DNA of 64,000 bases, taken from the NCBI RefSeq assembly GCF_000737325.1, contig NZ_CP011125.1:6510001-6574000 (forward strand), read 5' to 3'. Each line of letters starts with the position of its first letter. The first letter of the stretch is position 1. Made by a program: the position numbers and the translations under genes. A model generated the notes under the pieces. It was not told the origin of the DNA, did not search any database, and was given only the letters and a program-made list of their open reading frames with translations. This stretch comes from Sandaracinus amylolyticus. Its GTDB lineage: Bacteria; Myxococcota_A; Polyangia; Polyangiales; Sandaracinaceae. This document shows positions 566 to 62,614 of the stretch, in pieces.

Positions 566-1686
566 GCGACGAGCGACTGCGCGCGTCGCTGCGCGACGCC
601 AGCGACGAGCACCGGCTGCATCACAACTGGGGGGCGATCGAGGCGCGGCGCAGCGCGCGCCCGGCGCGCGGCGCGCTCGTGATCGGCGCCGCGGCCGCAT
701 CGATCGCGCTCGTCGTCCTCGCGATCCGCGGGTCGACCCCGCGGCCCGGCCCGCTGCAGCTGGGGGACGGCGCGGAGCTCGCGTGCGCGCCGGGGCGCGA
801 CCTGGTGCTCGCCGACGGCTCGCGCGTCGACGTGGACGCGAACAGCGAGCTCGACGTGCTCGAGAACGACGCGCACGCGCTGCGGTGGTGGCTGCGCGCA
901 GGGCGCGCACGGTTCGACGTGACGCCGGGAGGATCGAGGCGCTGGATCGTCGAGACCGGCGCGGTGGTGGTCGAGGTGCTCGGCACGTCGTTCACGGTGG
1001 CGCACGTCGACGGTGGGGTGCGGGTCGACGTCGAGCACGGCGTCGTGCTGGTGCGGGGTGACGACGTGCCGGGTGGGCTCGCGCGGCTCACCGCGGGTCG
1101 GTCGATGACGATCGGCGCGCGGCAGGCGCTCGAGACGCTCGTGGTCGCGGCGCGGTCCGAGACGCCGCCGGAGGCGACGCTCGAGACCGCGGGGCCCGAG
1201 CGCAGGCCAGCTCGCGCCACGACCGCGCCATCGCGCGAGACCGCGCCGTCCGAGGCCGTCGCGCCCGAGACCGCGCCCCCCGAGACTGCACCGGCCGAGC
1301 CCGCAGCCGCCGAGCGACGCGCGGGCGATCTGCGCGACGCCGACCTGCTGCGCTCGCAGGGGCGCGTCGCCGAAGCGGCCGCGCTGCTCGGGGACATCGC
1401 GCGCGCGCACGACGAGCCGCGTGCCGATCGCGCGCTCGCCGCGTTCACGCTCGCGCGCCTCGCGCTCGACCGCCTCGATCGACCGCGGGACGCGGCGGAT
1501 GCGTTCACGCTCGCGCTGGAGCTCGGGCTCGACACCACCCTCGTCGAGGCGGCGCGCGCCCGTCGCGTCGAGGCGCTGGTGCGCGCGGGCGAGACCGCGC
1601 GCGCGACCGAGGCCGCGCGTGAGTACGTGCGTCACCATCCCGCGGGACGGTGGCGGCACCAGGTCGAGCGTTGGGTCGCGCGCTGA
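562..1686 (+). CDS. FecR-like anti-sigma / membrane regulator with C-terminal TPR-like region
   Basis: Predicted single-pass inner-membrane protein of about 374 residues. A short cytoplasmic N terminus is followed by one transmembrane segment (about residues 37-55, alanine/valine/leucine rich). Next comes a FecR-type periplasmic domain (roughly 70-190) with the usual LADGSRVDVDANSELDV and ETGAVVVEVLGTSFTV stretches. A Pro/Glu/Ala-rich linker (about 215-260) leads to a helical C-terminal region that looks TPR-like (ALAAFTLARLALDRLDRPRDA). FecR proteins relay an outer-membrane signal to an ECF sigma factor, and this gene overlaps the upstream sigma gene by 4 bp. The TPR-like tail is not part of classical FecR but is common in myxobacterial versions. 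No TonB-dependent receptor is adjacent, so the signal is unknown. Confidence 0.85.
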   Translation: MSDERLRASLRDASDEHRLHHNWGAIEARRSARPARGALVIGAAAASIALVVLAIRGSTPRPGPLQLGDGAELACAPGRDLVLADGSRVDVDANSELDVLENDAHALRWWLRAGRARFDVTPGGSRRWIVETGAVVVEVLGTSFTVAHVDGGVRVDVEHGVVLVRGDDVPGGLARLTAGRSMTIGARQALETLVVAARSETPPEATLETAGPERRPARATTAPSRETAPSEAVAPETAPPETAPAEPAAAERRAGDLRDADLLRSQGRVAEAAALLGDIARAHDEPRADRALAAFTLARLALDRLDRPRDAADAFTLALELGLDTTLVEAARARRVEALVRAGETARATEAAREYVRHHPAGRWRHQVERWVAR

Positions 1687-2573
1687 TCGCGCTCGTGCTG
1701 TTCGCGGCGTCGACCGCGCGAGCGCAGCACGCACCACTGCGCGTGCCCGCGTGCGCCGCGGTGCACGCCGACGTCGTGCTGCTCGCGGAGCTCGTCGCGA
1801 TCGAGGTCGGTGCGGAGGCGATGACCATCGAGCTCGACGCGACGCTCTGCGATCCGAGCGCGCGCACCCTCTCGTTCGTCGCTCGCGCGGAGGGCGTCGT
1901 CGCGCACGACGCGATCGCCCTGCCCTCGCGCGACGAGCTCGCGTCCACGACACGCGCGCTCGCGCTCGCGTTGGTGGAGCGCGCACGACTGGCCCTCGCG
2001 ACCGCCGCTCGAATGCGCACGGCGAGCGCACCGCCCTCGCGCGTGCCGGTCGCGCCGCACGACGCGCCGCGGGCCGCGCTCGACCTCGCGGCGGGTGGCG
2101 GGCTCGCCCCGCTCTCGCTGGATGGGCTCGTCTTCGCGCAGCTCGCGATTGGCGCGACGTTCGAGGGCACTTGGATCGCGCGCGCCGCGCTCGGCGGAGG
2201 CTGGTCACGCGGCAGCGCGGACGAAGGTCGGGTCGACGTCGCCCTGCTCGGGCTCGAGCTCGCGGGGGGCTGGGTCTTCGCGCGCTCCGATGCGCTGGAG
2301 GCTGCGCTCCTCGCCCGCGCCGACGTCGGCGTCGTGCACGCGGTCGGCACCCGGCGCGACGGCAGCTCCGCGCGCACCACGACCGCGCCGTGGTGCACGC
2401 TCGGCCTCGCGCTCGAGCTCGCGTGGTGGCTCGATCCGCGCGTCGCGATCGCCGGCGCGCTCGGCGCCGACGGCGTGATCGCGGGGCTCGAGATCGTCGA
2501 GACCTCGGGCACCGCGCTCGCGCTCTCGTATCTGATCGTCGACGTCGCGCTCGGCGTGCGCATCGCGCTCTAG
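1650..2573 (+). CDS. Exported protein of unknown function, third gene of the sigma/FecR set
   Basis: About 307 residues beginning with a plausible Sec signal peptide (RALIALVLFAASTARAQ). The first half is a mixed alpha/beta segment with two cysteines. The second half (from about residue 145) is rich in alternating glycine and hydrophobic stretches such as AAGGGLAPLSLDGLVFAQL, as in small outer-membrane beta barrels. I do not recognise a named family. The start is uncertain: GTG at 1650 gives the longest signal peptide, while TTG at 1671 would also leave one. Either way the gene overlaps the end of the FecR-like gene out of frame, so it is probably co-transcribed and may be an envelope partner or target of the sigma factor (inference). 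Confidence 0.7.
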   Translation: MAAPGRALGRALIALVLFAASTARAQHAPLRVPACAAVHADVVLLAELVAIEVGAEAMTIELDATLCDPSARTLSFVARAEGVVAHDAIALPSRDELASTTRALALALVERARLALATAARMRTASAPPSRVPVAPHDAPRAALDLAAGGGLAPLSLDGLVFAQLAIGATFEGTWIARAALGGGWSRGSADEGRVDVALLGLELAGGWVFARSDALEAALLARADVGVVHAVGTRRDGSSARTTTAPWCTLGLALELAWWLDPRVAIAGALGADGVIAGLEIVETSGTALALSYLIVDVALGVRIAL

Positions 2574-2601
2574 CCTGCAGCGCGACGCTCGCTCCCGGGC
2601 G

Positions 2602-3786
2602 TCAGGCGTGGACGCGCACCATGCCCTCGCGCACCAGGCGACGCACGAGCACGAGCTTGCCCGCGTCGTCGAGGTCGCCCGGGAGATCCTCGATCACGAA
2701 GTCGGGCGTCTCGAGCGCGAAGCGCGCCGGCTCCGCCGCGTGCTCGGGCAGGCGCATCTCCGCGCCGTAGCACGAGACGATGAACTGACCGTCGCGGATC
2801 CTCCAGCGATAGACGAGGTTCGGACGCGCGCCCGCGCGATCCTTCACGCTCAGCTTGGGCAGGCGGAGGATCTGCTCCATCTGTCCCTCGAGCAGCGCGT
2901 GGCGCGTCGAGACGAGGTCGTCCGCGAAGTGATCCATCGCGGCGTCGAAGTCGACGCGCTCGGCCACGCGCTTCATGAGCGACTGGAAGAACTCGCGCGA
3001 CCGCGCGCGATCGAACTCGGTCTGCGCGTAGCCGACGGGGAGCGAGCGGCGGAAGTCCGCGTCACCGAGCGCGACCTTCGCGACGGCCTCGAGGAGCAGC
3101 TCGGTCCAGCTCGTCGCGAGCGCGCCGAGCGTGATGTGCAGCGTCTCGCCCTCGCGCGTCTGCGCGTCGTGCATCACGCCGCGCGGGAGATAGAGCATGT
3201 CGCCGGGGTGCAGATCGAACTCCGCGGTGACCTCGCCCTTCGGCGTCTCGTCGCGGCGGAACGGCTGGCCCTTGAAGGGCAGCTCGACCGGCGTGTTGTA
3301 GAGGATCCAGTGCTTCGTCCCGTGGATCTGCAGGATGAAGACGTCGTGCGAGTCGTAGTGCGTGGGGAAGCCCTGCGCGTTGCTCGGCGTGCAGTAGATG
3401 TTGCACTGGAAGCGCGTGCTGATGTCGCGCTCGAGCGAGCGACAGAGATCGGCCAGCGGCGGGATGAACCCCTCGAGCTGGTTGAAGACGATCGTCCCGC
3501 CGTCCGCGAACTGCTGGTAGAGGCGCGCCGAGTCGACGCTGTTGTTCGGGAACGTGTACTCGCTCGCGTCGACCTGCCGCGCGGCGTTCGCGATGAAGCA
3601 CTGCGGGTGCATCAGCGCCTGCGTGGTGATCACGTGATCGAACGCGCGCAGGCTGAGGAGGTCGGCGTAGTAGTCGCGCTGCTCGCGACGGATGACGAGC
3701 GGCTTGCGCTCCCAGTGCTCGGCGTAGAACTGCTCCGGCGTGATCGGAGCGATGAGCTTGCGGAACGCGTACGTGCTCTCGGCCAT
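2602..3786 (-). CDS. JmjC/cupin-type Fe(II)/2-oxoglutarate oxygenase (ribosomal-oxygenase-like)
   Basis: About 394 residues of the cupin_4 / JmjC superfamily that includes bacterial RoxA (YcfD) and eukaryotic MINA53/NO66 protein hydroxylases. The iron-binding HxD is visible in HYDSHDVFILQIHGTKHW, and the distal His sits in LYLPRGVMHDAQT. The lysine in HGTKHW is at the position expected to contact 2-oxoglutarate. A C-terminal winged-helix-like region follows, as in RoxA. The ATG at 3786 was chosen because AAGAGGG precedes it at ideal spacing and the frame upstream is low-complexity. Family members hydroxylate ribosomal proteins, but the substrate here is unknown. It faces away from the next gene and appears monocistronic. 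Confidence 0.85.
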   Translation of the reverse strand: MAESTYAFRKLIAPITPEQFYAEHWERKPLVIRREQRDYYADLLSLRAFDHVITTQALMHPQCFIANAARQVDASEYTFPNNSVDSARLYQQFADGGTIVFNQLEGFIPPLADLCRSLERDISTRFQCNIYCTPSNAQGFPTHYDSHDVFILQIHGTKHWILYNTPVELPFKGQPFRRDETPKGEVTAEFDLHPGDMLYLPRGVMHDAQTREGETLHITLGALATSWTELLLEAVAKVALGDADFRRSLPVGYAQTEFDRARSREFFQSLMKRVAERVDFDAAMDHFADDLVSTRHALLEGQMEQILRLPKLSVKDRAGARPNLVYRWRIRDGQFIVSCYGAEMRLPEHAAEPARFALETPDFVIEDLPGDLDDAGKLVLVRRLVREGMVRVHA

Positions 3787-53110: not shown

Positions 53111-53790
53111 GCGTCGGGCTCCTCGCGCGACACGAGGCGGAACCCCACGCCGCGCACCGAGCGGATCTCGAGCGGTGCCGACGCGCGCGCGAGCTTCTGG
53201 CGCAGGTAGCCGACGTAGACGTCGAGCACGTTGGGATCGCCCTCGAACCCCGAGCCCCACACGCTGCGCAGCAGGTGCGCGCGGGTGATCACCTCGCCCG
53301 CGTGCGAGAAGAGCTCGGCCGCGAGCGCGTGCTCGCGCGCCGTGAGCGCGACCTCGCTCGCGCCGAAGCGGATCGCGCGACGTCGCCCGTCGAGCGCGAC
53401 GTCGCCGACGCGGCGGAGATCGATCGCGCCCTCGGCGCGGCGATGCAGCGCCTCGATGCGCGCGAGCAGCTCGTCGAAGTCGAAGGGCTTCGGCAGGTAG
53501 TCGTCGGCCCCGGCGCGCAGCCCGGTCACGCGCTCGGGCACCGTGCCGCGCGCGGTCAGCAGGAGCACGGGCGTGCGCAGGCCCGCGCGGCGCCACTCGC
53601 GCAGCAGCTCCACGCCGTCTCCGTCGGGCAGCATCCAGTCGAGCAGCACGACGTCGTACTCGATCGTGCGCGCCTGCTCGCGCGCGTCATGCACGCGCGA
53701 GCAGCGATCGACCTGGTGGCCCTCCTCACGCAGGCCCCGCACCAGGTGCGTCGCGAGCTTCTCCTCGTCCTCCACCAAGAGCAGCTTCAT
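53107..53790 (-). CDS. OmpR-family response regulator of the metal-efflux operon
   Basis: A 227-residue protein: receiver domain with acidic pair (VEDEE), phospho-acceptor Asp51 in LLDWMLPDGDG, conserved Thr and Lys (LLTARG, LPKPFDFDE), then a winged-helix DNA-binding domain (LTAREHALAAELFSHAGEV ... VYVGYLRQKL). It probably activates the czc genes upstream in the same operon. Its first 65 bp overlap the end of czcA in another frame, so its expression depends on czcA translation. Confidence 0.95.
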   Translation of the reverse strand: MKLLLVEDEEKLATHLVRGLREEGHQVDRCSRVHDAREQARTIEYDVVLLDWMLPDGDGVELLREWRRAGLRTPVLLLTARGTVPERVTGLRAGADDYLPKPFDFDELLARIEALHRRAEGAIDLRRVGDVALDGRRRAIRFGASEVALTAREHALAAELFSHAGEVITRAHLLRSVWGSGFEGDPNVLDVYVGYLRQKLARASAPLEIRSVRGVGFRLVSREEPDA

Positions 53791-56700
53791 CGGGCCTCCG
53801 GCGGATCCGCGCGATCCACGGGTGGATCGAGGGGATCAGCACGAGCGTGAGCCAGGTCGAGGTGACGAGCCCGCCGACGACGACGGTCGCGAGCGGGCGC
53901 TGCACCTCGGCGCCGACGCCGCGCGCGAGCATCATCGGCACGAAGCCGAGCGACGCGACGAGCGCGGTCGTGAGCACGGGGCGGAGGCGCGCGCGCGCCG
54001 CTCGTCGTGCGGCCTCGTCGGGCGCGAAGCCTTCGGCCTCCTCGTGCATGATGCGCGACATCAGCACGACGCCGTTGAGCACGGCGATGCCCGACAGCGC
54101 GATGAACCCGACCGCGGCCGACACCGAGATGGGCAGGCCACGCATCGCGAGCGCGATCATCCCGCCGACCGCGGCGAACGGCACGTTCATGAAGATGACG
54201 AGCACCGGTCGCACGCGGCCGAACACGCGGTAGAGCAGCACGAGGATCGCGATCAGCACGATCGGGATCACGATCGCGAGCCGCTCGCGCGCGCGCTCGA
54301 GCCCTTCGTATTGGCCGCCCCACTCCGCGCGGTATCCGCGCGGCACGTCGACGGCGGCGTCGATGCGCGCTTCGGCCTCCTGCACCACGGTGCCGAGGTC
54401 GCGGCCGCGCACGTTGAAGCCGATCACGATCCGTCGCGCGCCGTTCTCGTGCGACACGAGCGCGGGCGCTTCCTGCGCGTCGACGTGCGCGACGCGCGAG
54501 AGCGGGATGAGCGCACCGCTCGCGGTGGGGAGCCCGACGTCGGCGATCGTGAACGCGCTCGTCGACGCCCCGAGGCGCACGCGGATCGGGATGCGCAGCG
54601 GGCCCTCCCAGGTGTCGGCGGCGTGCACGCCCGCGCGCAGCGCGCCGACGGCCTCGAGCACGTCCTGCGCGTCGAAGCCGGCCGCGGAGGACTCGAGCGG
54701 GCGCGGGCGCACCTCGACGAGCGAGACGCTCGGCGGCGCGGTGACGCGCACGTCGACCGCGCCCGGCACCTCGCGCAGCACGGCAGCGGAGCGCTCCGCG
54801 AGATCGCTCAGCACGTCGAGATCCTCGCCGTAGTAGACGAGCGCGACGTCGGTCACCGCGCCTCCGACGAGCTCGTTGAAGCGCATCTGGATCGGCTGGG
54901 TGAACGAGAGCTCGGCACCGGGCGCGCGCGCGTCGATCGCGCCGCGCAGATCGGCGATCACGTCGTCGAGCGTACGGCCCGGGGCCCAGTCGTCGCGCGG
55001 GTACAGCGAGACGAACACGTCGGCCTGCTCGATGCCCATCACGTCGGTCGCGACGGCGGGGCTGCCGATGCGCGACGAGACGTGCCGCACCTCGGGCGCG
55101 GCCTCGCGGATCACCTGCTCGAGGCGCGTGCCCTCGGCGATCGCGGTCTCGATCGACACGTCGGGCGCGCGCGTCGTCTGCACGACGAGATCACCCTCGT
55201 CGAGCTGCGGGACGAACGCGCTGCCCGCGGTCCAGAACACGCGCGCGCCGATCAGCGCGAGGCCGATCGCGATCGCGACGACGAGCACCGGGCGGCGCAT
55301 CGCGACATCGAGGATCGGCGCGTAGGCGCGCGCGCTCGCGCGCACCAGGAGCGGCTCGCGCGCGGGCACGTGCTCGGGGCGCAGCCATCGCGCGGCGGCA
55401 GCGGGCACGAAGGTGAGCGCGAGGACGAGCGAGGTCGCGAGCGCCATGACGACCGTGATCGCCATCGGCCGGTACATCTTCCCCTCGATCCCCTCGAGCG
55501 CGAGGATCGGCAGGTACACGAGGAGGATGACGAGCACCGAGTAGAAGACCGGCCGCGCGACGCTGCGCGAGGTCTCCGCGACCTGCGCGTCCGCGGGACG
55601 ATCGTCGCGCGCGTGTCCCTCGAATCGCTCGTGGCTGTGTTCGCGGTTTCGAGGACTGAACGCCGCGAAGTGATGGAACACGCTCTCGACGACGACGACC
55701 GCGCCGTCGACGAGCAGACCGAAGTCGAGCGCGCCGAGGCTCATGAGGTTCCCGGGGACACCGAAGAACGCCATGCCCATCACCGCGCCCAGCATCGAGA
55801 GCGGGATCACGAGCGCGACGAGGAGCCCCGCGCGCAGGCTGCCCAGCATCGCGAAGAGCACCGCGATCACGAGCAGGCCGCCCTCGAGCAGGCTCTTGCC
55901 GACGGTGCTCAGCGTCGCGCTGACGAGATCGCTCCGATCGTAGACCTCGTTCACCACGACGTCGTCGGGCAGCGCCGCGCGCACGTCGGGCAGACGCTCG
56001 TGCACGCCGCGCAGCACCTCGAGCGCGTTCTCCGCGAGGAGCATCTGCACCATCACGTAGACGGTCTCGCCGCGCCCTCCCTCGGTCGCGGCGCCGATGC
56101 GCGGCTCCTGTCCCGAGATCACGTCCGCGACGTCGCCGATGCGCACCACGCGCGTGGGATCCTGCGGATCGACGCGCACCACCGCGGCCGCGATCTCGGC
56201 CGGCGTCGTCGGCAGCGCGACGCCGCGCAGCAGCACGTGCGCCGGGCCGGCGGGAACCGTCGCGCCGGTCACGCTGCCCGTCGATCGCGACGCGGCCTCC
56301 CGCAGCGCGGAGAGCGTCACGCCCCAGCGCGCCATGCGCACCGGGTCGCCGATCACGTCGAGCGTGCGGCGACCTCCGCCCCACGTGTTGACCTCGACCA
56401 CGCCCGGCGCGGTGCGGAGGATCGGCGCGACGCGTCGCTGCACGAGCTCGAGCAGCTCGGCCGGCGTGCGCTCCGAAGAGCTGAGCGTGAACTGGTAGAT
56501 CTCGCCGAGCCCGCCGCTCACTGGGCCGAGCTCCGGCGGCGACGCGCTCGGCGGCAGCTGCTCCTGCGCGATCGCGACGCGCTCGCCGACGAGCTGACGC
56601 GCACGATAGATGTCGGTCGAGTCCTCGAAGATCGAGGTGATCGCCGAGAGGCCGTAGCGCGACACGCTGCGCGTCTCGACCAGGCCGGGCATGCCGCCGA

Positions 56701-56917
56701 GCGAGATCTCGAGCGGGCGCGTGACGAGGCGCTCGACCTCCTCGGGCGTGAGACCGGGCGCGGTCGTGAGCACGATGACCTGCTGCCCGGTCACGTCGGG
56801 CAGCGCGTCGAAGCGCATCCCGCGGATCGAGAGCGCGCCGATCACCGCGAAGATCGCGGTCGCGATCAGCACCGCGCGACGGCGCGCGACCGCGCGTTCG
56901 ACGAGCGTCTCGATCAA
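53726..56917 (-). CDS. czcA: Heavy-metal efflux RND pump, CzcA-like
   Basis: A 1063-residue inner-membrane RND transporter of the heavy-metal efflux group. The family motifs are present: LPDVTGQQVIVLTTAPG at the start, and the proton-relay DFGLLVDGAVVVVES in TM4. The two acidic residues plus Glu of that motif mark divalent-cation (Zn/Co/Cd) pumps rather than Cu/Ag CusA. An HSHERFEGH stretch after TM4 adds histidines. It drives export of periplasmic or cytosolic metal through CzcB and CzcC. The final ~20 residues overlap the response regulator gene out of frame and are Gly/Arg-rich, unlike typical RND tails. The ATG overlaps the czcB stop (ATGA). Confidence 0.93.
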   Translation of the reverse strand: MIETLVERAVARRRAVLIATAIFAVIGALSIRGMRFDALPDVTGQQVIVLTTAPGLTPEEVERLVTRPLEISLGGMPGLVETRSVSRYGLSAITSIFEDSTDIYRARQLVGERVAIAQEQLPPSASPPELGPVSGGLGEIYQFTLSSSERTPAELLELVQRRVAPILRTAPGVVEVNTWGGGRRTLDVIGDPVRMARWGVTLSALREAASRSTGSVTGATVPAGPAHVLLRGVALPTTPAEIAAAVVRVDPQDPTRVVRIGDVADVISGQEPRIGAATEGGRGETVYVMVQMLLAENALEVLRGVHERLPDVRAALPDDVVVNEVYDRSDLVSATLSTVGKSLLEGGLLVIAVLFAMLGSLRAGLLVALVIPLSMLGAVMGMAFFGVPGNLMSLGALDFGLLVDGAVVVVESVFHHFAAFSPRNREHSHERFEGHARDDRPADAQVAETSRSVARPVFYSVLVILLVYLPILALEGIEGKMYRPMAITVVMALATSLVLALTFVPAAAARWLRPEHVPAREPLLVRASARAYAPILDVAMRRPVLVVAIAIGLALIGARVFWTAGSAFVPQLDEGDLVVQTTRAPDVSIETAIAEGTRLEQVIREAAPEVRHVSSRIGSPAVATDVMGIEQADVFVSLYPRDDWAPGRTLDDVIADLRGAIDARAPGAELSFTQPIQMRFNELVGGAVTDVALVYYGEDLDVLSDLAERSAAVLREVPGAVDVRVTAPPSVSLVEVRPRPLESSAAGFDAQDVLEAVGALRAGVHAADTWEGPLRIPIRVRLGASTSAFTIADVGLPTASGALIPLSRVAHVDAQEAPALVSHENGARRIVIGFNVRGRDLGTVVQEAEARIDAAVDVPRGYRAEWGGQYEGLERARERLAIVIPIVLIAILVLLYRVFGRVRPVLVIFMNVPFAAVGGMIALAMRGLPISVSAAVGFIALSGIAVLNGVVLMSRIMHEEAEGFAPDEAARRAARARLRPVLTTALVASLGFVPMMLARGVGAEVQRPLATVVVGGLVTSTWLTLVLIPSIHPWIARIRRRPDEAALGGGRGEARDAPGAGPA

Positions 56918-58011
56918 TGATCGTCTCCTGCCGGCGCGCGCAGCAGCGCCGCAGGATCGTCGGCGACCTGTGCGCCCGGTGAGAGCGCGCCGGGCTCGAT
57001 CACCTCGACGAGCGCGATGCCCGCGTCGGTCGCGAGCACGCGGACCCGCACCCGCACGGGCTCGGGGGTGCCCCGCAGCATCACGAACGCGCCTTCGTCG
57101 TCGTGCCCGATCGCGCCCGCGGGCACTTGCAGGACGCCTTCGCGCGCGACGTGCACCTCGAGCGTGCCGCGCAGTCCGTCGGCGAGCGTCGTCGTCTCGC
57201 GCGGCGTGATCCAGTAGAGGCGCGTTCCGTCCGCGGGATCGATCGCGCTCGCGTCGGGCTCGTCGCGCAGCGGCACCGGCGCGCCGATCGCGGGCACGAA
57301 CATCAGCGACGTCCCCTCGGGCATCGCGCGAGAGAGGCGCGCCTCGATGCGCACCGGCGCGCTTCCGATCACCTCGACGAGCGGCTCGCCCGCCGGATCG
57401 CGCACCTCGCCGATGCGCGCGTCGACGCGGCTCACCACGCCGTCGATCGGCGAGACGATCGGCACCGATCCGCGCGAGAGCACGGCCGCGGCGCGTCCCG
57501 CGCTCACGCCGGCAGCGCGCAGGATCGCGAGGGCGCGCGCCCGCTCCGCGCCGAGGTCCGCGAGGCTCGCCGCCTGCTCGAACACCCTGCCCTGCTCGAC
57601 GAGGCCCTCCTCGCGCAGCGCCTCGAGCTCGTCCTGACGCGCTTCGCGCAGCGCGAGCCGGCGTCCGCCCGCGACCCAGATCGCGGCCGCGTCGAGCACC
57701 TCGGGCATGCTCGCTTCGAGCAGCACGTCGCCCGCGCGCACCGAGTCACCCGGCGCCACGCGGACCTCGAGCACGCGCGCCGCGAACGGCGGCGCGACGC
57801 GCGCCATCGCGCCCGGGCCCGCGACCACACGCGCGGGCGCTTCGAGGAGCGCGCGATCACCCGCCACGCGCACCTCGGCCCACCGCGCGACGCTGGGCGC
57901 GCCTCCGTTCTCCGCGACCGGCTCGGGCTCGACCGCCGGCTCGGGCTCGCTGCGCTCGCCACACGCGATCGTCGTCGCGAGGAGGCACACCATCAGACGA
58001 CGAACGATCAA
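56914..58011 (-). CDS. czcB: Membrane-fusion lipoprotein, CzcB-like
   Basis: About 365 residues. TTG 58011 is chosen because GGAGGA lies 3 bp upstream and it gives a complete basic-hydrophobic signal; the ATG at 57993 would remove the positive charges. The lipobox ends at Cys 17 (LATTIAC). The HlyD/RND-adaptor core shows ARVLEVRVAPGDSVRAGDVL (half lipoyl motif), a helical hairpin, then VPIVSPIDGVVSRVDARIG. It joins CzcA to the outer-membrane channel. The start overlaps the czcC stop as TTGA, one of the rarer coupled starts in the window. Confidence 0.87.
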   Translation of the reverse strand: MIVRRLMVCLLATTIACGERSEPEPAVEPEPVAENGGAPSVARWAEVRVAGDRALLEAPARVVAGPGAMARVAPPFAARVLEVRVAPGDSVRAGDVLLEASMPEVLDAAAIWVAGGRRLALREARQDELEALREEGLVEQGRVFEQAASLADLGAERARALAILRAAGVSAGRAAAVLSRGSVPIVSPIDGVVSRVDARIGEVRDPAGEPLVEVIGSAPVRIEARLSRAMPEGTSLMFVPAIGAPVPLRDEPDASAIDPADGTRLYWITPRETTTLADGLRGTLEVHVAREGVLQVPAGAIGHDDEGAFVMLRGTPEPVRVRVRVLATDAGIALVEVIEPGALSPGAQVADDPAALLRAPAGDDH

Positions 58012-59252
58012 CGTTCCTCCACGCGCTCGGCGCGCGCGCGCGACGCGAGCATCAGCCAGGCGCGCACCTCGGCCCATCGACGCGCGCCCTCCACCTGCAC
58101 GAGACGGCTGCGCGCCGCGAGGCTGCGCCGCCGCGCGTCGAGCAGCAGCATCGTCGTGGTCTCTCCCGCGCGCATCTGCGCCTCGCGGGACGACACCAGC
58201 GCCTCGAGCGCAGGCACCACGACCTCGCGCAGCGTTTGCTCGGCGCGTCGCGTGTGATCGACCTCGTGCGCGATCTCCACCGCGCGCCGCCGCGCCTCCA
58301 GCTCGTGCGCCTCGAGCGCGGCGTCCGCGCGCTCCGCTTCTTCGAGCGCCAGCGAGCGGTCGCGCGCACCGAGATCGACCAGCGGGATCCCGAACGAGAG
58401 CTGCCCGAAGATCATCAGGCCGTCGGGCGCCTCGCGATAGACCTGCAGGCCCGTCTGCATCGTCGGCCCCGCGAGCGCGGCGCGCTCGGCCTCTCTCGCG
58501 CGCGCTGCGATCGCCGCGAGGCGCGCCATCTCGACGCGCGGCAGTCCCTCGACGTCGGAGAGCCGCGCCTCGAGCTCGTCGTGGCCCGGCAGCTCCGGGC
58601 TGGGCGCGCCGCCGGTGGTGTGCATCGTCTCTTCCGCGCGCACCGCCATCGCGTCGGCGAGCGCGAGCGCGCCCGCGAGCCGCGCGCCCTCCGCGGCGTG
58701 TGCGGCGAGCTGCGTCTCGCCGTGGAACGCGCTCACCTCCGACGCGTCGGGTGCGGTGATCACGCCGACGTCCGCGGCGCGTCGTGCCCGCTCCTCGAGC
58801 TCCCGCGCGATGTCGCGCTCCGCGATCGCGAGCGCCAGCTGGCGCTCGAGCACCGAGAGCTCGATCCACGCGCGCGCCGCGCCGATGCGACGCTCCAGCG
58901 CGATGGCGCGACGCTCCGCCGCGATCACCGCACGCTCGTCCTCGGCGGCGCGGCGACGCGCCCCACCCAGCCCGGCGAGGCTCCAGCCCTGGACCACGCC
59001 GATCGATCCCTCGAACCCGCGATCCTGCTCGCGGAGCACACGAACGCCGGGCACCAGCTGCAGCTCCGTCGCGCTCGTGACGTCCGAGATGTCGCGATCG
59101 CGGCGGGCGCGCGACGCGAGCGCGCGCTCCGCGCCTCGCACGTCGGGCGCGTCCTCGCCGAGCGCGAGCGCCTCGTCGAACGAGATCGCCTGCGCGCGCA
59201 CCGCAGCTGGGCACGCGAGCAGGACGAGCACGACGAGCAAGAGGCGCGGCAT
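58008..59252 (-). CDS. czcC: TolC-type outer-membrane efflux protein, CzcC-like
   Basis: About 414 residues. Signal peptide PRLLLVVLVLLACPAAVRAQ, then two long alpha-helical repeats typical of TolC family (ISFDEALALG at the start, heptads throughout such as RRAEQTLREVVVPALEAL). Assignment as the outer-membrane channel of the Czc system rests on family resemblance and order (C-B-A on the minus strand). First gene of the five-gene operon czcC-czcB-czcA-regulator-kinase. No promoter motif is clear upstream; the gap to the next gene (59253-59309) is only 57 bp. Confidence 0.82.
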   Translation of the reverse strand: MPRLLLVVLVLLACPAAVRAQAISFDEALALGEDAPDVRGAERALASRARRDRDISDVTSATELQLVPGVRVLREQDRGFEGSIGVVQGWSLAGLGGARRRAAEDERAVIAAERRAIALERRIGAARAWIELSVLERQLALAIAERDIARELEERARRAADVGVITAPDASEVSAFHGETQLAAHAAEGARLAGALALADAMAVRAEETMHTTGGAPSPELPGHDELEARLSDVEGLPRVEMARLAAIAARAREAERAALAGPTMQTGLQVYREAPDGLMIFGQLSFGIPLVDLGARDRSLALEEAERADAALEAHELEARRRAVEIAHEVDHTRRAEQTLREVVVPALEALVSSREAQMRAGETTTMLLLDARRRSLAARSRLVQVEGARRWAEVRAWLMLASRARAERVEER

Positions 59253-59309
59253 CGCCCCAGATATGCGCACCGCGCCGGGCGCGCGACTGAGAGCTTCCTG
59301 AGAGCGTTC

Positions 59310-61106
59310 TCAGGAACGCGAGAGCCGCTCGAGGACCAGCGCGAGATCCGCGGGCAGCCCGCTCTCGAGCACCAGCGGTCCGCTCTCGAGCGCGAGCTCG
59401 ATGCGCTCGCAGTGCAGGAACGGGCGATCGAGCGCGGCGCGCTCCCACAGATGGCGATTGCTCGGTGCGTGCCCGTAGCGCGCGTCGCCGAGCAGCGGAT
59501 GTCCGATCGACGCGAGGTGACGCCGGATCTGGTGGGTGCGCCCCTCGTCCGGTGCCGCACGCACCAGCGAGTGACCGCCCACGATCGCGCGCCGCGTGAA
59601 GCGCGTGGTCGACGGCAGATCGCGCCCTTCCTCGCGCAATGCGCGCCGCACGATGCCCTTGCCGTGCGTCACGCCGCGCACGAGCGCGAGGTAGCGCTTG
59701 CGCCCCGTCGCGAGCGCGCGCGCGAACGGCTCGACGTGCTCGGGACGACGCGCGAAGAGGCACACGCCGCTCGTGCCCGCATCGAGGCGATGCACCGGCA
59801 CCGCGTGCTCCGCGCCCGGCAGCGCGCGCACCCGCGCGAGCGCGCTGATCGGATGCTCGGGGTGCGGCGTCGTCGGCTCGTGGGGATCTTTGTCGATGAC
59901 GATCAGCCGCTCGTCCTCGTGCAGCACGCGCACCGGCGGAGGCGCCGACGGCTCGAGCCACGCGATCGTCTCCACGTGCGCGCTCTGCGGCATCAGGTCG
60001 TACGGCGAGAGGCGCCGCGCCGCGAGCCCGAGCCGCGCGAGGTGCGCGAGATCGCGCGCGAGCGTCTCCGGATCACACGCGACGTAGACCACGCGCGCCG
60101 GCGCGAGCGCGGCGATCGCGGCGCGCAGCTCGGGAGGCACACCACGTCGCGGGGGGTCGAGCACGATCGCATCCGCGCGCTCTCCACGCGCGGCCATCGC
60201 GACCAGCGCCGCGGTCGCGTCGCCGATCTCGATCGAGAGCCCACCGATGCGCTGCGCGTCCGCCGCGCGCTTGGCGTTCTCGATCGCCGGCGCGAACGCC
60301 TCGATCGCGTGCACGCGCGCCCCGCTCGACGCGAGCCGCAGCGCGAGCGCGCCCGACCCCGCGAAGAGCTCGATCACCCGCGGCGCGCCCTCGAGCGCCG
60401 CCACGATCGCGTCGTGCATCGCCGCCGCGACCCCGCGATGCGCCTGCACGAACGAGCCGTGCGTCGCGAGCGTCCACGGCGCGCCCGGCGCGATCCGATC
60501 CCGCAGCTCGCCCGGGCCCCACACGAGGCGCGTCTCCGCGCCCAGCACCTGCGGCCCGCGACCGCGCAGGTTGATCGCGACCGACGCGACGCTCGCGCAT
60601 CCGTTGCGCACCGCGTCCGCGGCCGCGCGCGCCTCGCGCTCGCTCACCTCGCGATCGAGCGCGAACGTCACCAGCACCGACGCATGTCCTCGAAGGCCGG
60701 CAACTCCTGCGTCGACCACCTCGCGCAGATCGACCGCGGCGAGCGCGCCTCCGCGATCGCTCGCGCGCAGCACCGCGCCCGCGTCGCGCGGCGGATCGTC
60801 CAGCAGCGCGCGCACCCGCGCCGCGACCTCGTGGACCGCCGGCGCGAGCACCGGGCAGTCGACGGTGTCGACCACGTCGTGCGTGCCCTCGCGGAAGAGC
60901 CCGAGCGACGTCCCCTGCACCATCAGCTTCGCCCGCGTGCGATACCGGAGCGGCGGCTCGGCGCGCGGCACCTCGTCGATCGTCACGCGCGCGAGCTCGG
61001 CGAACCGCTGCAGCGCGTGCTCGACCTGTGCGCGCTTCTCCGCACGCTGCGTCTCCTCGACGACGCCGATGCGCGGGCACCCCGGGCACACGTGCTCGCT
61101 CGCCAT
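59310..61106 (-). CDS. Fusion of an RNA m5U methyltransferase (RlmD/TrmA-like) and an RluA-type pseudouridine synthase
   Basis: A 598-residue two-enzyme protein. Residues 1-385: RumA/TrmA-type SAM methyltransferase, with FAGSGAL SAM loop (about 248), VLDPPRRGV, the nucleophile Cys344 in YVACDPETLARDL and the catalytic HVET Glu379. N-terminal cysteines C7 and C10 (CPGCPRIG) and C84 suggest a reduced Fe-S site. The TRAM domain is absent. Residues 395-598: RluA-family pseudouridine synthase with catalytic Asp442 in HRLDAGTSGVCLFAR and RTHQIRRHLASIGHPLLGD. ATG 61106 overlaps the upstream gene's stop (ATGA). One polypeptide could make both m5U and pseudouridine, perhaps in the same RNA. Confidence 0.9.
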   Translation of the reverse strand: MASEHVCPGCPRIGVVEETQRAEKRAQVEHALQRFAELARVTIDEVPRAEPPLRYRTRAKLMVQGTSLGLFREGTHDVVDTVDCPVLAPAVHEVAARVRALLDDPPRDAGAVLRASDRGGALAAVDLREVVDAGVAGLRGHASVLVTFALDREVSEREARAAADAVRNGCASVASVAINLRGRGPQVLGAETRLVWGPGELRDRIAPGAPWTLATHGSFVQAHRGVAAAMHDAIVAALEGAPRVIELFAGSGALALRLASSGARVHAIEAFAPAIENAKRAADAQRIGGLSIEIGDATAALVAMAARGERADAIVLDPPRRGVPPELRAAIAALAPARVVYVACDPETLARDLAHLARLGLAARRLSPYDLMPQSAHVETIAWLEPSAPPPVRVLHEDERLIVIDKDPHEPTTPHPEHPISALARVRALPGAEHAVPVHRLDAGTSGVCLFARRPEHVEPFARALATGRKRYLALVRGVTHGKGIVRRALREEGRDLPSTTRFTRRAIVGGHSLVRAAPDEGRTHQIRRHLASIGHPLLGDARYGHAPSNRHLWERAALDRPFLHCERIELALESGPLVLESGLPADLALVLERLSRS

Positions 61107-62614
61107 CACCACGTCCCGCGCTCGCACGCGCGCATCCGCTCGTACCGGTCCCATGCCTCACCACCACGCGCGCGGAGCCGCCCCGCGAGCGCGATCGACT
61201 CGTACGCCTCGAGCCAGCGCCGCAGCGGCGCGGCCTGCACGCGCAGCGCGGCCTCGGTCTCCTGCATCGCGCCGAGATCGTCCTGCGCCTCGAGCCACCG
61301 CGCCCGCGCCTCGGAGCGCCCGAGGAACGCGCGGATCGCGTCCGCCTCGCGCACCAGCGTCGCGTCGAAGTCGGGGTGCCACGGATCGTCGAGCACCGGC
61401 CATCGCGAGAGCAGCTCGCCGACGACGGCCCACCACGCCTCGTCGGCTTCCTCCGCGCGCGCCTCGATCGCGGCCTCGAGCTCGACGCGACGCCGCGCGA
61501 GCGCATCGAGCCGCGCCTGCGCGTCGCCCTCGCCCTCGATGTCGAGCCGCTCGCCGATCGCGCGCACCACCGCCTCGTCCTCCGGCATCGACACCGCCGC
61601 GCTCGGCCCTTCGCTCGGCGCGATCACCCGCAGCAAGCGCGCCGACGTGCTCGTCGGCAGATCGAACGAGAGCGCCGCGATGCGCGCCCGCGCGTCCGCC
61701 TCCGCGAGCGACACCCGCCCGTCGTGATCGAGATCGATCTCCGCGTGCACGTCGTTCCCCGCGCGATCCCGCCCGCGCAGCGCCTCGAGCACGTGGATCG
61801 ACCACGCCTCGTGCGACGCGCGATCGGGGCTCGGATCGCACCCGCCCGCCTCTTCGTCCCAGCTCGTCGCGAAGAGCCCGCACACGTCGAGCGACGAGGG
61901 CCCGCGGTCGGGATCGAGCCCGTCGAACGCGAGCTCGGCGAACCCGCCCGCGTAGCACGACGTGATCACCATCCGCAGCGGGCGCGGCGACTCGGTCGAC
62001 GCGATCGTCTCCGCGATCGTCGTCGGCGCGAGCTCGGTGCCGCCCCACAGCAGCGCGGTCGAGTCCGCGGGGAGCTCGCCGCGATCGCCGTGCGCCGCGA
62101 CCCACAGCAAGAGCGGCTCGTCGCCGTCGACCAGCGCCGCGCGCAGCGCCTCCACGGTCGCGTCCAGCGTCGCCGGCCCGTGCATCGCGAGCCGCGCCGG
62201 CTGGTAGCGCGCATCGCGGCCGCCGCGCGGCACCAGCAGATCGCCGAGCTCGCGACGCAGCGGATCGCCCCGCTCCGCGTCGTCCGTCACCTGCACCGCG
62301 CGCGTCCCCGGCCCCCCTGCGAAGAGCACCACACCACCGTCGCCGAGCACCTCGCGCGCGAGCAGCAGATCCTCCTCGAGCGAGATCTGGTTGAGCTCGG
62401 GATCCGCGCCGCCGCCCACCGCGATCCACCGCACGTGCTCGGGCATCGCCGCGGGCGCGACGGTCACCTCGATCGCCGGCGCGACGTCCTCCTCGCGCTC
62501 CTCCGCGTCGTCGACGGGCTCCTCGGAGGGGCTCCCCGCGCCCCGCGCGGCCCACGCGATCAGCGCCACCACGCCGATCGCGCCGATCGCGATCCATCCC
62601 TTCGACGCACGCAC
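61106..62614 (-). CDS. Membrane-anchored caspase-like (clan CD) peptidase with EF-hand
   Basis: About 502 residues. One N-terminal membrane anchor (WIAIGAIGVVALIAWAA) precedes a caspase-fold domain with the His/Cys dyad: His175 in LLLWVAAHGDRGE and Cys220 in RMVITSCYAGGF, the spacing and HG/SC-x-GG pattern of C13/C14-like peptidases. Residues 294-305 form a complete EF-hand loop (DLDHDGRVSLAE, with D1, D3, D5, G6, V8, E12), suggesting Ca2+ control. The remaining C-terminal ~180 residues are helical. It is coupled to the RNA-modification fusion gene by ATGA, an unexpected pairing. Confidence 0.75.
   Translation of the reverse strand: MRASKGWIAIGAIGVVALIAWAARGAGSPSEEPVDDAEEREEDVAPAIEVTVAPAAMPEHVRWIAVGGGADPELNQISLEEDLLLAREVLGDGGVVLFAGGPGTRAVQVTDDAERGDPLRRELGDLLVPRGGRDARYQPARLAMHGPATLDATVEALRAALVDGDEPLLLWVAAHGDRGELPADSTALLWGGTELAPTTIAETIASTESPRPLRMVITSCYAGGFAELAFDGLDPDRGPSSLDVCGLFATSWDEEAGGCDPSPDRASHEAWSIHVLEALRGRDRAGNDVHAEIDLDHDGRVSLAEADARARIAALSFDLPTSTSARLLRVIAPSEGPSAAVSMPEDEAVVRAIGERLDIEGEGDAQARLDALARRRVELEAAIEARAEEADEAWWAVVGELLSRWPVLDDPWHPDFDATLVREADAIRAFLGRSEARARWLEAQDDLGAMQETEAALRVQAAPLRRWLEAYESIALAGRLRARGGEAWDRYERMRACERGTW

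Follow-up and report, generated by a model that had tools for sequence, protein, structure and literature searches.

The analyzed DNA, a stretch of 64,000 nucleotides from the Sandaracinus amylolyticus genome (hereafter the window), carries on its minus strand a reading frame in which an RNA m5U methyltransferase seems to be joined to a pseudouridine synthase. This raises three questions: whether the two enzymes are really one protein, whether both halves are still at work, and which RNA they would serve.

One reading frame with two enzyme domains

The frame at 59310-61106 comprises 598 open codons and encodes a 598-residue protein; the initial annotation had described it as uninterrupted. Starting from another in-frame ATG, at 61154, the protein would have 614 aa, but the shorter form is favored because the start codon at 61106 shares bases with the stop codon of the upstream gene (TGATG). 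Frame length by itself is weak evidence for a gene in this GC-rich DNA, since the opposite strand of the same region holds a spurious frame of 1163 aa. Chance and frameshift are instead excluded by co-linear full-length homologues with both halves in many genomes, at 92%, 63%, 54% and down to 38% identity. The features are as follows.

59310..61106, minus strand: fusion CDS, stop codon included (from the frame listing and homologues)
59949..61106, minus strand: methyltransferase half, residues 1-386; COG2265/RumA type, no TRAM; PF05958, TIGR00479, own clade
59313..59939, minus strand: pseudouridine synthase half, residues 390-598; RluA superfamily, TruC-sister clade; PF00849
61077..61088, minus strand: Cys7 and Cys10 of the Fe-S motif; both kept in 69/69; first Cys of C-x5-C-x2-C missing here
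60855..60857, minus strand: Cys84, last Cys of the Fe-S motif; kept in 70/70
60075..60077, minus strand: Cys344, methyltransferase nucleophile (YVACDP); Cys in 79/79 fusion proteins
59970..59972, minus strand: Glu379, methyltransferase general base (HVET); Glu in 79/79 fusion proteins
59781..59783, minus strand: Asp442, catalytic Asp of the synthase (HRLDAGTSG); D at this position in 64/79, with losses in several lineages
61106..62614, minus strand: upstream gene, 502 aa; a neighbor outside the enzyme, its stop overlapping the fusion start

Both domains scored above their Pfam gathering cut-offs: PF05958 at residues 216-385 with 43.7 bits (cut-off 23) and PF00849 at residues 401-533 with 66.8 bits (cut-off 26.8). 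The first half has the catalytic Cys and Glu, the DPPR motif and the SAM-binding domain (PF05958) of COG2265 m5U methyltransferases, and in the second the HRLD Asp, the Tyr and the HQIR motif of the RluA superfamily are intact. Cys344, Glu379 and Asp442 had been named correctly. The usual four-Cys 4Fe-4S motif (C-x5-C-x2-C ... C) lacks its first Cys in the S. amylolyticus protein, while the C-x5-C-x2-C part is complete in 65/70 relatives having that region. The same Cys (residues 1-10) is missing in the Sandaracinus copies, including L015 and L016. By sequence, the nearest solved structures were RlmCD/RumA for the methyltransferase half and RluC for the synthase half; AlphaFold2, run on a two-sequence alignment, gave a mean pLDDT of 39.9, too low for the model to be used. 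The proposed fusion proved genuine: the protein is an m5U methyltransferase of the COG2265/RumA superfamily followed by a pseudouridine synthase of the RluA superfamily, and in the S. amylolyticus copy both active sites are present and both halves are constrained.

The same join was recovered in 79 proteins with both halves aligned (the alignment includes some fragments), which represent several myxococcotal orders and classes. That two genes were joined by a frameshift or an assembly artefact has a negligible probability and was rejected: nothing speaks in its favor, and the 79 co-linear proteins come from many assemblies, single-contig genomes included. The S. amylolyticus genome itself is a single contig of 10.33 Mb. 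The fusion was found in 19/38 close relatives, a few of these cases lying on a broken or partial contig. Strong matches were present in 68/240 genomes of the class and 42/282 of the phylum, the looser threshold of the phylum search admitting some matches to methyltransferase-only proteins or RlmD. Beyond Myxococcota the search was a pattern scan, which detects close relatives alone, and in the plasmid collection searched the fusion was not matched. We conclude that the fusion is real, old and widespread within Myxococcota, both enzyme kinds being already known; no description of a fused m5U methyltransferase and pseudouridine synthase was found in the literature searched.

Several observations concern the surroundings and relatives of the gene. 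The 502-aa upstream protein has a hydrophobic N-terminal segment and, by eye, caspase-like AAHGDRG and ITSCYAGG motifs; a Pfam search matched no family, and at least six genomes of the family have its gene immediately before the fusion. Downstream, at window positions 53726-59270 on the minus strand, is an RND efflux operon that encodes an outer-membrane efflux protein, a HlyD-type adaptor and an AcrB-type pump. Each of three congeneric genomes (G170, G198, G222) has two paralogous fusions (L087, L089, L092; L093, L099, L102), the synthase site being clearly destroyed in one paralogue and unusual in the other. The standalone synthases nearest to the fused ones (L033 in G007 and L034 in G009; 214 aa, 45-47% identity) occur in two genomes without the fusion, and that of G007 has an in-frame TAG where G009 has a Gln codon. 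A second fusion of 569 aa in the S. amylolyticus genome has the reversed order, with PF00849 preceding an RlmI-like PF10672 methyltransferase:

Own genome, C1:5045208-5045666 (locus), frame 1408-3114, plus strand: reversed-order fusion L005; PF00849 + PF10672

Relationships of the two halves

The initial annotation had compared the first half to RlmD, an identity that had to be given up. The RlmD equivalog model TIGR00479 scored 166.4 bits on residues 5-379, below its cut-off of 183.55, while the search for a separate RlmD gene yielded L011, with 221.8 bits. Furthermore, of the 19 relatives (out of 38) that have the fusion, 18 also have RlmD, G036 being the exception. The methyltransferase tree placed all fusion proteins together with all shortened ones in a single clade (SH-aLRT, 99), separate from RlmD and TrmA. 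RlmD was therefore rejected on the separate gene, the score, the lack of the N-terminal TRAM domain and the clade of its own. RlmC models reached 139.3 bits against a cut-off of 558; E. coli RlmC, a long branch in the tree, shares 23% identity with the methyltransferase half and has no supported grouping with it. The S. amylolyticus genome encodes two PF05958 proteins only, the fusion and L011, as well as TrmFO (520.6 bits; cut-off, 428.65).

The second half had been described as an RluA-type synthase. This holds at the level of the superfamily (PF00849) but not for membership in RluA, RluC or RluD: the fused synthase halves form a clade (100/97) that joins the TruC clade (98/97), away from those three, and RluA identity was rejected on this placement beside TruC. 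The TruC model NF008321 gave 76.4 bits against a cut-off of 328, the position being sister to the TruC clade rather than within it, and the RluA model NF007543 gave 36.6 bits against 286, RluA lying in another part of the tree. Two standalone proteins, one of them a long branch, fell inside or beside the fusion-synthase clade. The genome has separate TruC-like (L002), RluD-like (L001) and RluA-like (L004) proteins, so that the suggested check for an RluD gene turned up an RluD-like one. An RluA-like protein is present in 36/38 relatives, with or without the fusion.

Decay of the synthase site and absence of TRAM

Cys344, Glu379 and the PPR motif were retained in 79/79 proteins, whereas Asp442, Tyr/Phe472 and Arg528 were jointly retained in 57/77 fusion rows. 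Altogether, the synthase active site was decayed in 24/81 members (20/77 fusion rows and 4/4 shortened rows), with the domain still attached. The shortened proteins (L133, L134, L135, L138), which belong to other classes, have lost parts of the synthase site, and their C termini still read GHP...RFFxExxGLxRPFxH...GDL. On the methyltransferase tree the losses correspond to approximately 10 changes, 7 of them forced by well-supported branches (about 7-10 independent events, counted on a quick tree with residue calls that are rough in gappy rows). The loss in these lineages shows that methylation there does not depend on pseudouridylation. The greater interest of the fusion lies in this repeated decay into pseudoenzymes.

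Selection on the halves differed accordingly between pairs with intact and decayed sites. With intact sites, the synthase half was more conserved than the methyltransferase half in 9/10 pairs, with one tie; with decayed sites, it was less conserved in 5/5. The synthase dN/dS was 0.02-0.30 in the former and still 0.06-0.61 in the latter, values that come from few pairs, some with high dS. Between S. amylolyticus and its congener, identity was 96% in the synthase half and 90% in the methyltransferase half, and the synthase dN/dS was 0.11. Both halves of the S. amylolyticus copy are under purifying selection, and the protein belongs to the intact class.

A profile made from the TRAM portions of standalone enzymes detected the domain in E. 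coli RlmD, L139, L108, L109, L136 and L114 (several of these positive controls had been used for training, but not L114 and L139). It was positive for the sister methyltransferases and matched 0/70 fusion frames and 0/4 shortened members. A missing TRAM and a present synthase domain co-occur across the clade, which suggests that the synthase fold may act as an RNA grip, the role of TRAM elsewhere. An RNA-holding role would also explain why the domain stays attached after its active site is lost.

In its strongest form, this idea makes the synthase half mainly a structural, RNA-binding replacement for TRAM, with the methyltransferase alone needed everywhere and pseudouridylation optional even where the residues are intact. 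The repeated losses beside invariant methyltransferase residues, the constraint on decayed domains and the absence of TRAM agree with it. We nevertheless consider it rather unlikely as a general account: in the Sandaracinus lineage it is the synthase half that is better conserved, with all catalytic motifs kept, which points to selected catalysis there. A phylum-wide domain exchange is a further, tentative proposal, to which we would give clearly less than an even chance. A TruC-like synthase would have joined a TRAM-less m5U methyltransferase and taken over RNA gripping, remaining a second enzyme on a neighboring uridine in some lineages and repeatedly becoming a dead RNA-binding module in others. 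If true, this would provide a natural enzyme-to-pseudoenzyme series inside one orthologous protein.

Candidate RNA targets and known systems

On balance, we think it probable that the S. amylolyticus protein is a bifunctional enzyme whose two active halves serve different uridines of one RNA, with helix 35 of 23S rRNA as the leading target; catalysis, the target and the RNA-grip role are what we infer from the comparisons above. In the N-terminal half, Cys344 would attack C6 of the target uridine and a methyl group would pass from SAM to C5, giving m5U. In the C-terminal half, another uridine would be flipped out and isomerized to pseudouridine via Asp442, while the synthase fold would help to hold the RNA in this TRAM-less clade. 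Since m5U formation and pseudouridylation both act at C5 of uracil, the halves cannot modify the same base, and two different uridines are needed, most simply close together on one RNA. Channelling of one RNA to two nearby uridines, as initially proposed, is possible.

In E. coli, the helix-35 loop carries neighboring Psi746, made by RluA, and m5U747, made by RlmC. RlmD, TrmFO, TruC-like and RluD-like proteins are all separate in the S. amylolyticus genome, which leaves U746/U747 in this loop as the leading candidate by elimination. Both uridines occur in the 23S rRNA of S. amylolyticus, where the loop reads UUGAA like that of E. coli and fits the RluA motif PsiURAA (PMC11421799). U746-U747 was also invariant in 10 other genomes (region recovered from 10/40), some of them with a decayed synthase site, so that the comparison does not discriminate. 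E. coli RlmC, the U747 enzyme, lacks TRAM (PMC6235398). Counting against helix 35 are the lack of a supported grouping of the methyltransferase half with E. coli RlmC and a synthase half nearer to TruC (tRNA Psi65) than to RluA. In addition, most reports of m5U747 concern beta-, epsilon- and gammaproteobacteria (PMC7226160). With an RluA-like protein in 36/38 relatives, Psi746 may also be already served. We therefore regard helix 35 as a doubtful assignment despite its lead, and a novel site on RNA is just as possible.

The sister position to TruC could instead indicate a two-enzyme fusion for the tRNA T arm, combining m5U54-like methylation with a TruC-like pseudouridine near position 65. Structure matches included 2jjq, a Pyrococcus RumA-like protein, and the archaeal RumA-type enzyme PAB0719 methylates tRNA U54, which supports this alternative. 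However, TrmFO, the usual m5U54 enzyme, and the separate TruC-like L002 are both present, and we consider the tRNA T arm an unlikely target. Quite improbable is a fusion of RlmD with an RluD/RluC-type synthase whose targets would be U1939 and a pseudouridine of 23S rRNA. Although RlmD is the top-scoring NCBIfam family for the first half, the score stays below the RlmD cut-off, a separate RlmD accompanies the fusion as described above, and the synthase half lies outside the RluC/RluD clades.

The preferred bifunctional enzyme can be set against several known systems. RlmD/RumA forms m5U1939 in 23S rRNA, and RlmCD forms m5U747 and m5U1939. The fusion has their catalytic core, Cys nucleophile, Glu base, DPPR motif and Cys-rich motif; it differs in having no TRAM, an attached synthase and a separate clade, with an RlmD of its own elsewhere in the genome. 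E. coli RlmC (23S m5U747) is likewise a COG2265 methyltransferase without TRAM but is unfused and, as noted, shows no supported grouping. TruC forms tRNA Psi65, and RluA forms Psi746 and tRNA Psi32. The fusion synthase shares their superfamily fold and motifs and is sister to the TruC clade, but it is fused and in its own clade, and separate TruC-like and RluA-like proteins coexist with it.

Two RNA-modifying enzymes on one chain are also found in RlmKL (YcbY), the fused m7G2069/m2G2445 methyltransferase acting on 23S rRNA, whose parts are separate proteins in other bacteria (PMC11194073); RlmKL, however, combines two methyltransferases and no synthase. TrcP of Vibrio cholerae, a C-to-Psi tRNA editor, has an RluA-family synthase behind a deaminase (PMC9553926) and resembles the fusion in placing such a synthase behind another RNA-base enzyme. 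In TrcP, the partners perform consecutive steps on one base, whereas m5U formation and pseudouridylation cannot follow each other on a single base. RlmB and RlmKL have assembly roles independent of catalysis (PMC11194073), and decayed and intact synthase halves offer natural comparisons for such non-modifying roles of modification enzymes. From the fusion one would also expect a specific pair of RNA marks in Myxococcota, for which no rRNA modification map was found in the literature searched. In summary, both enzyme families are well known; compared with them, what is new here is the recurrent synthase decay beside invariant methyltransferase residues and the absence of TRAM throughout the members checked (n = 74).
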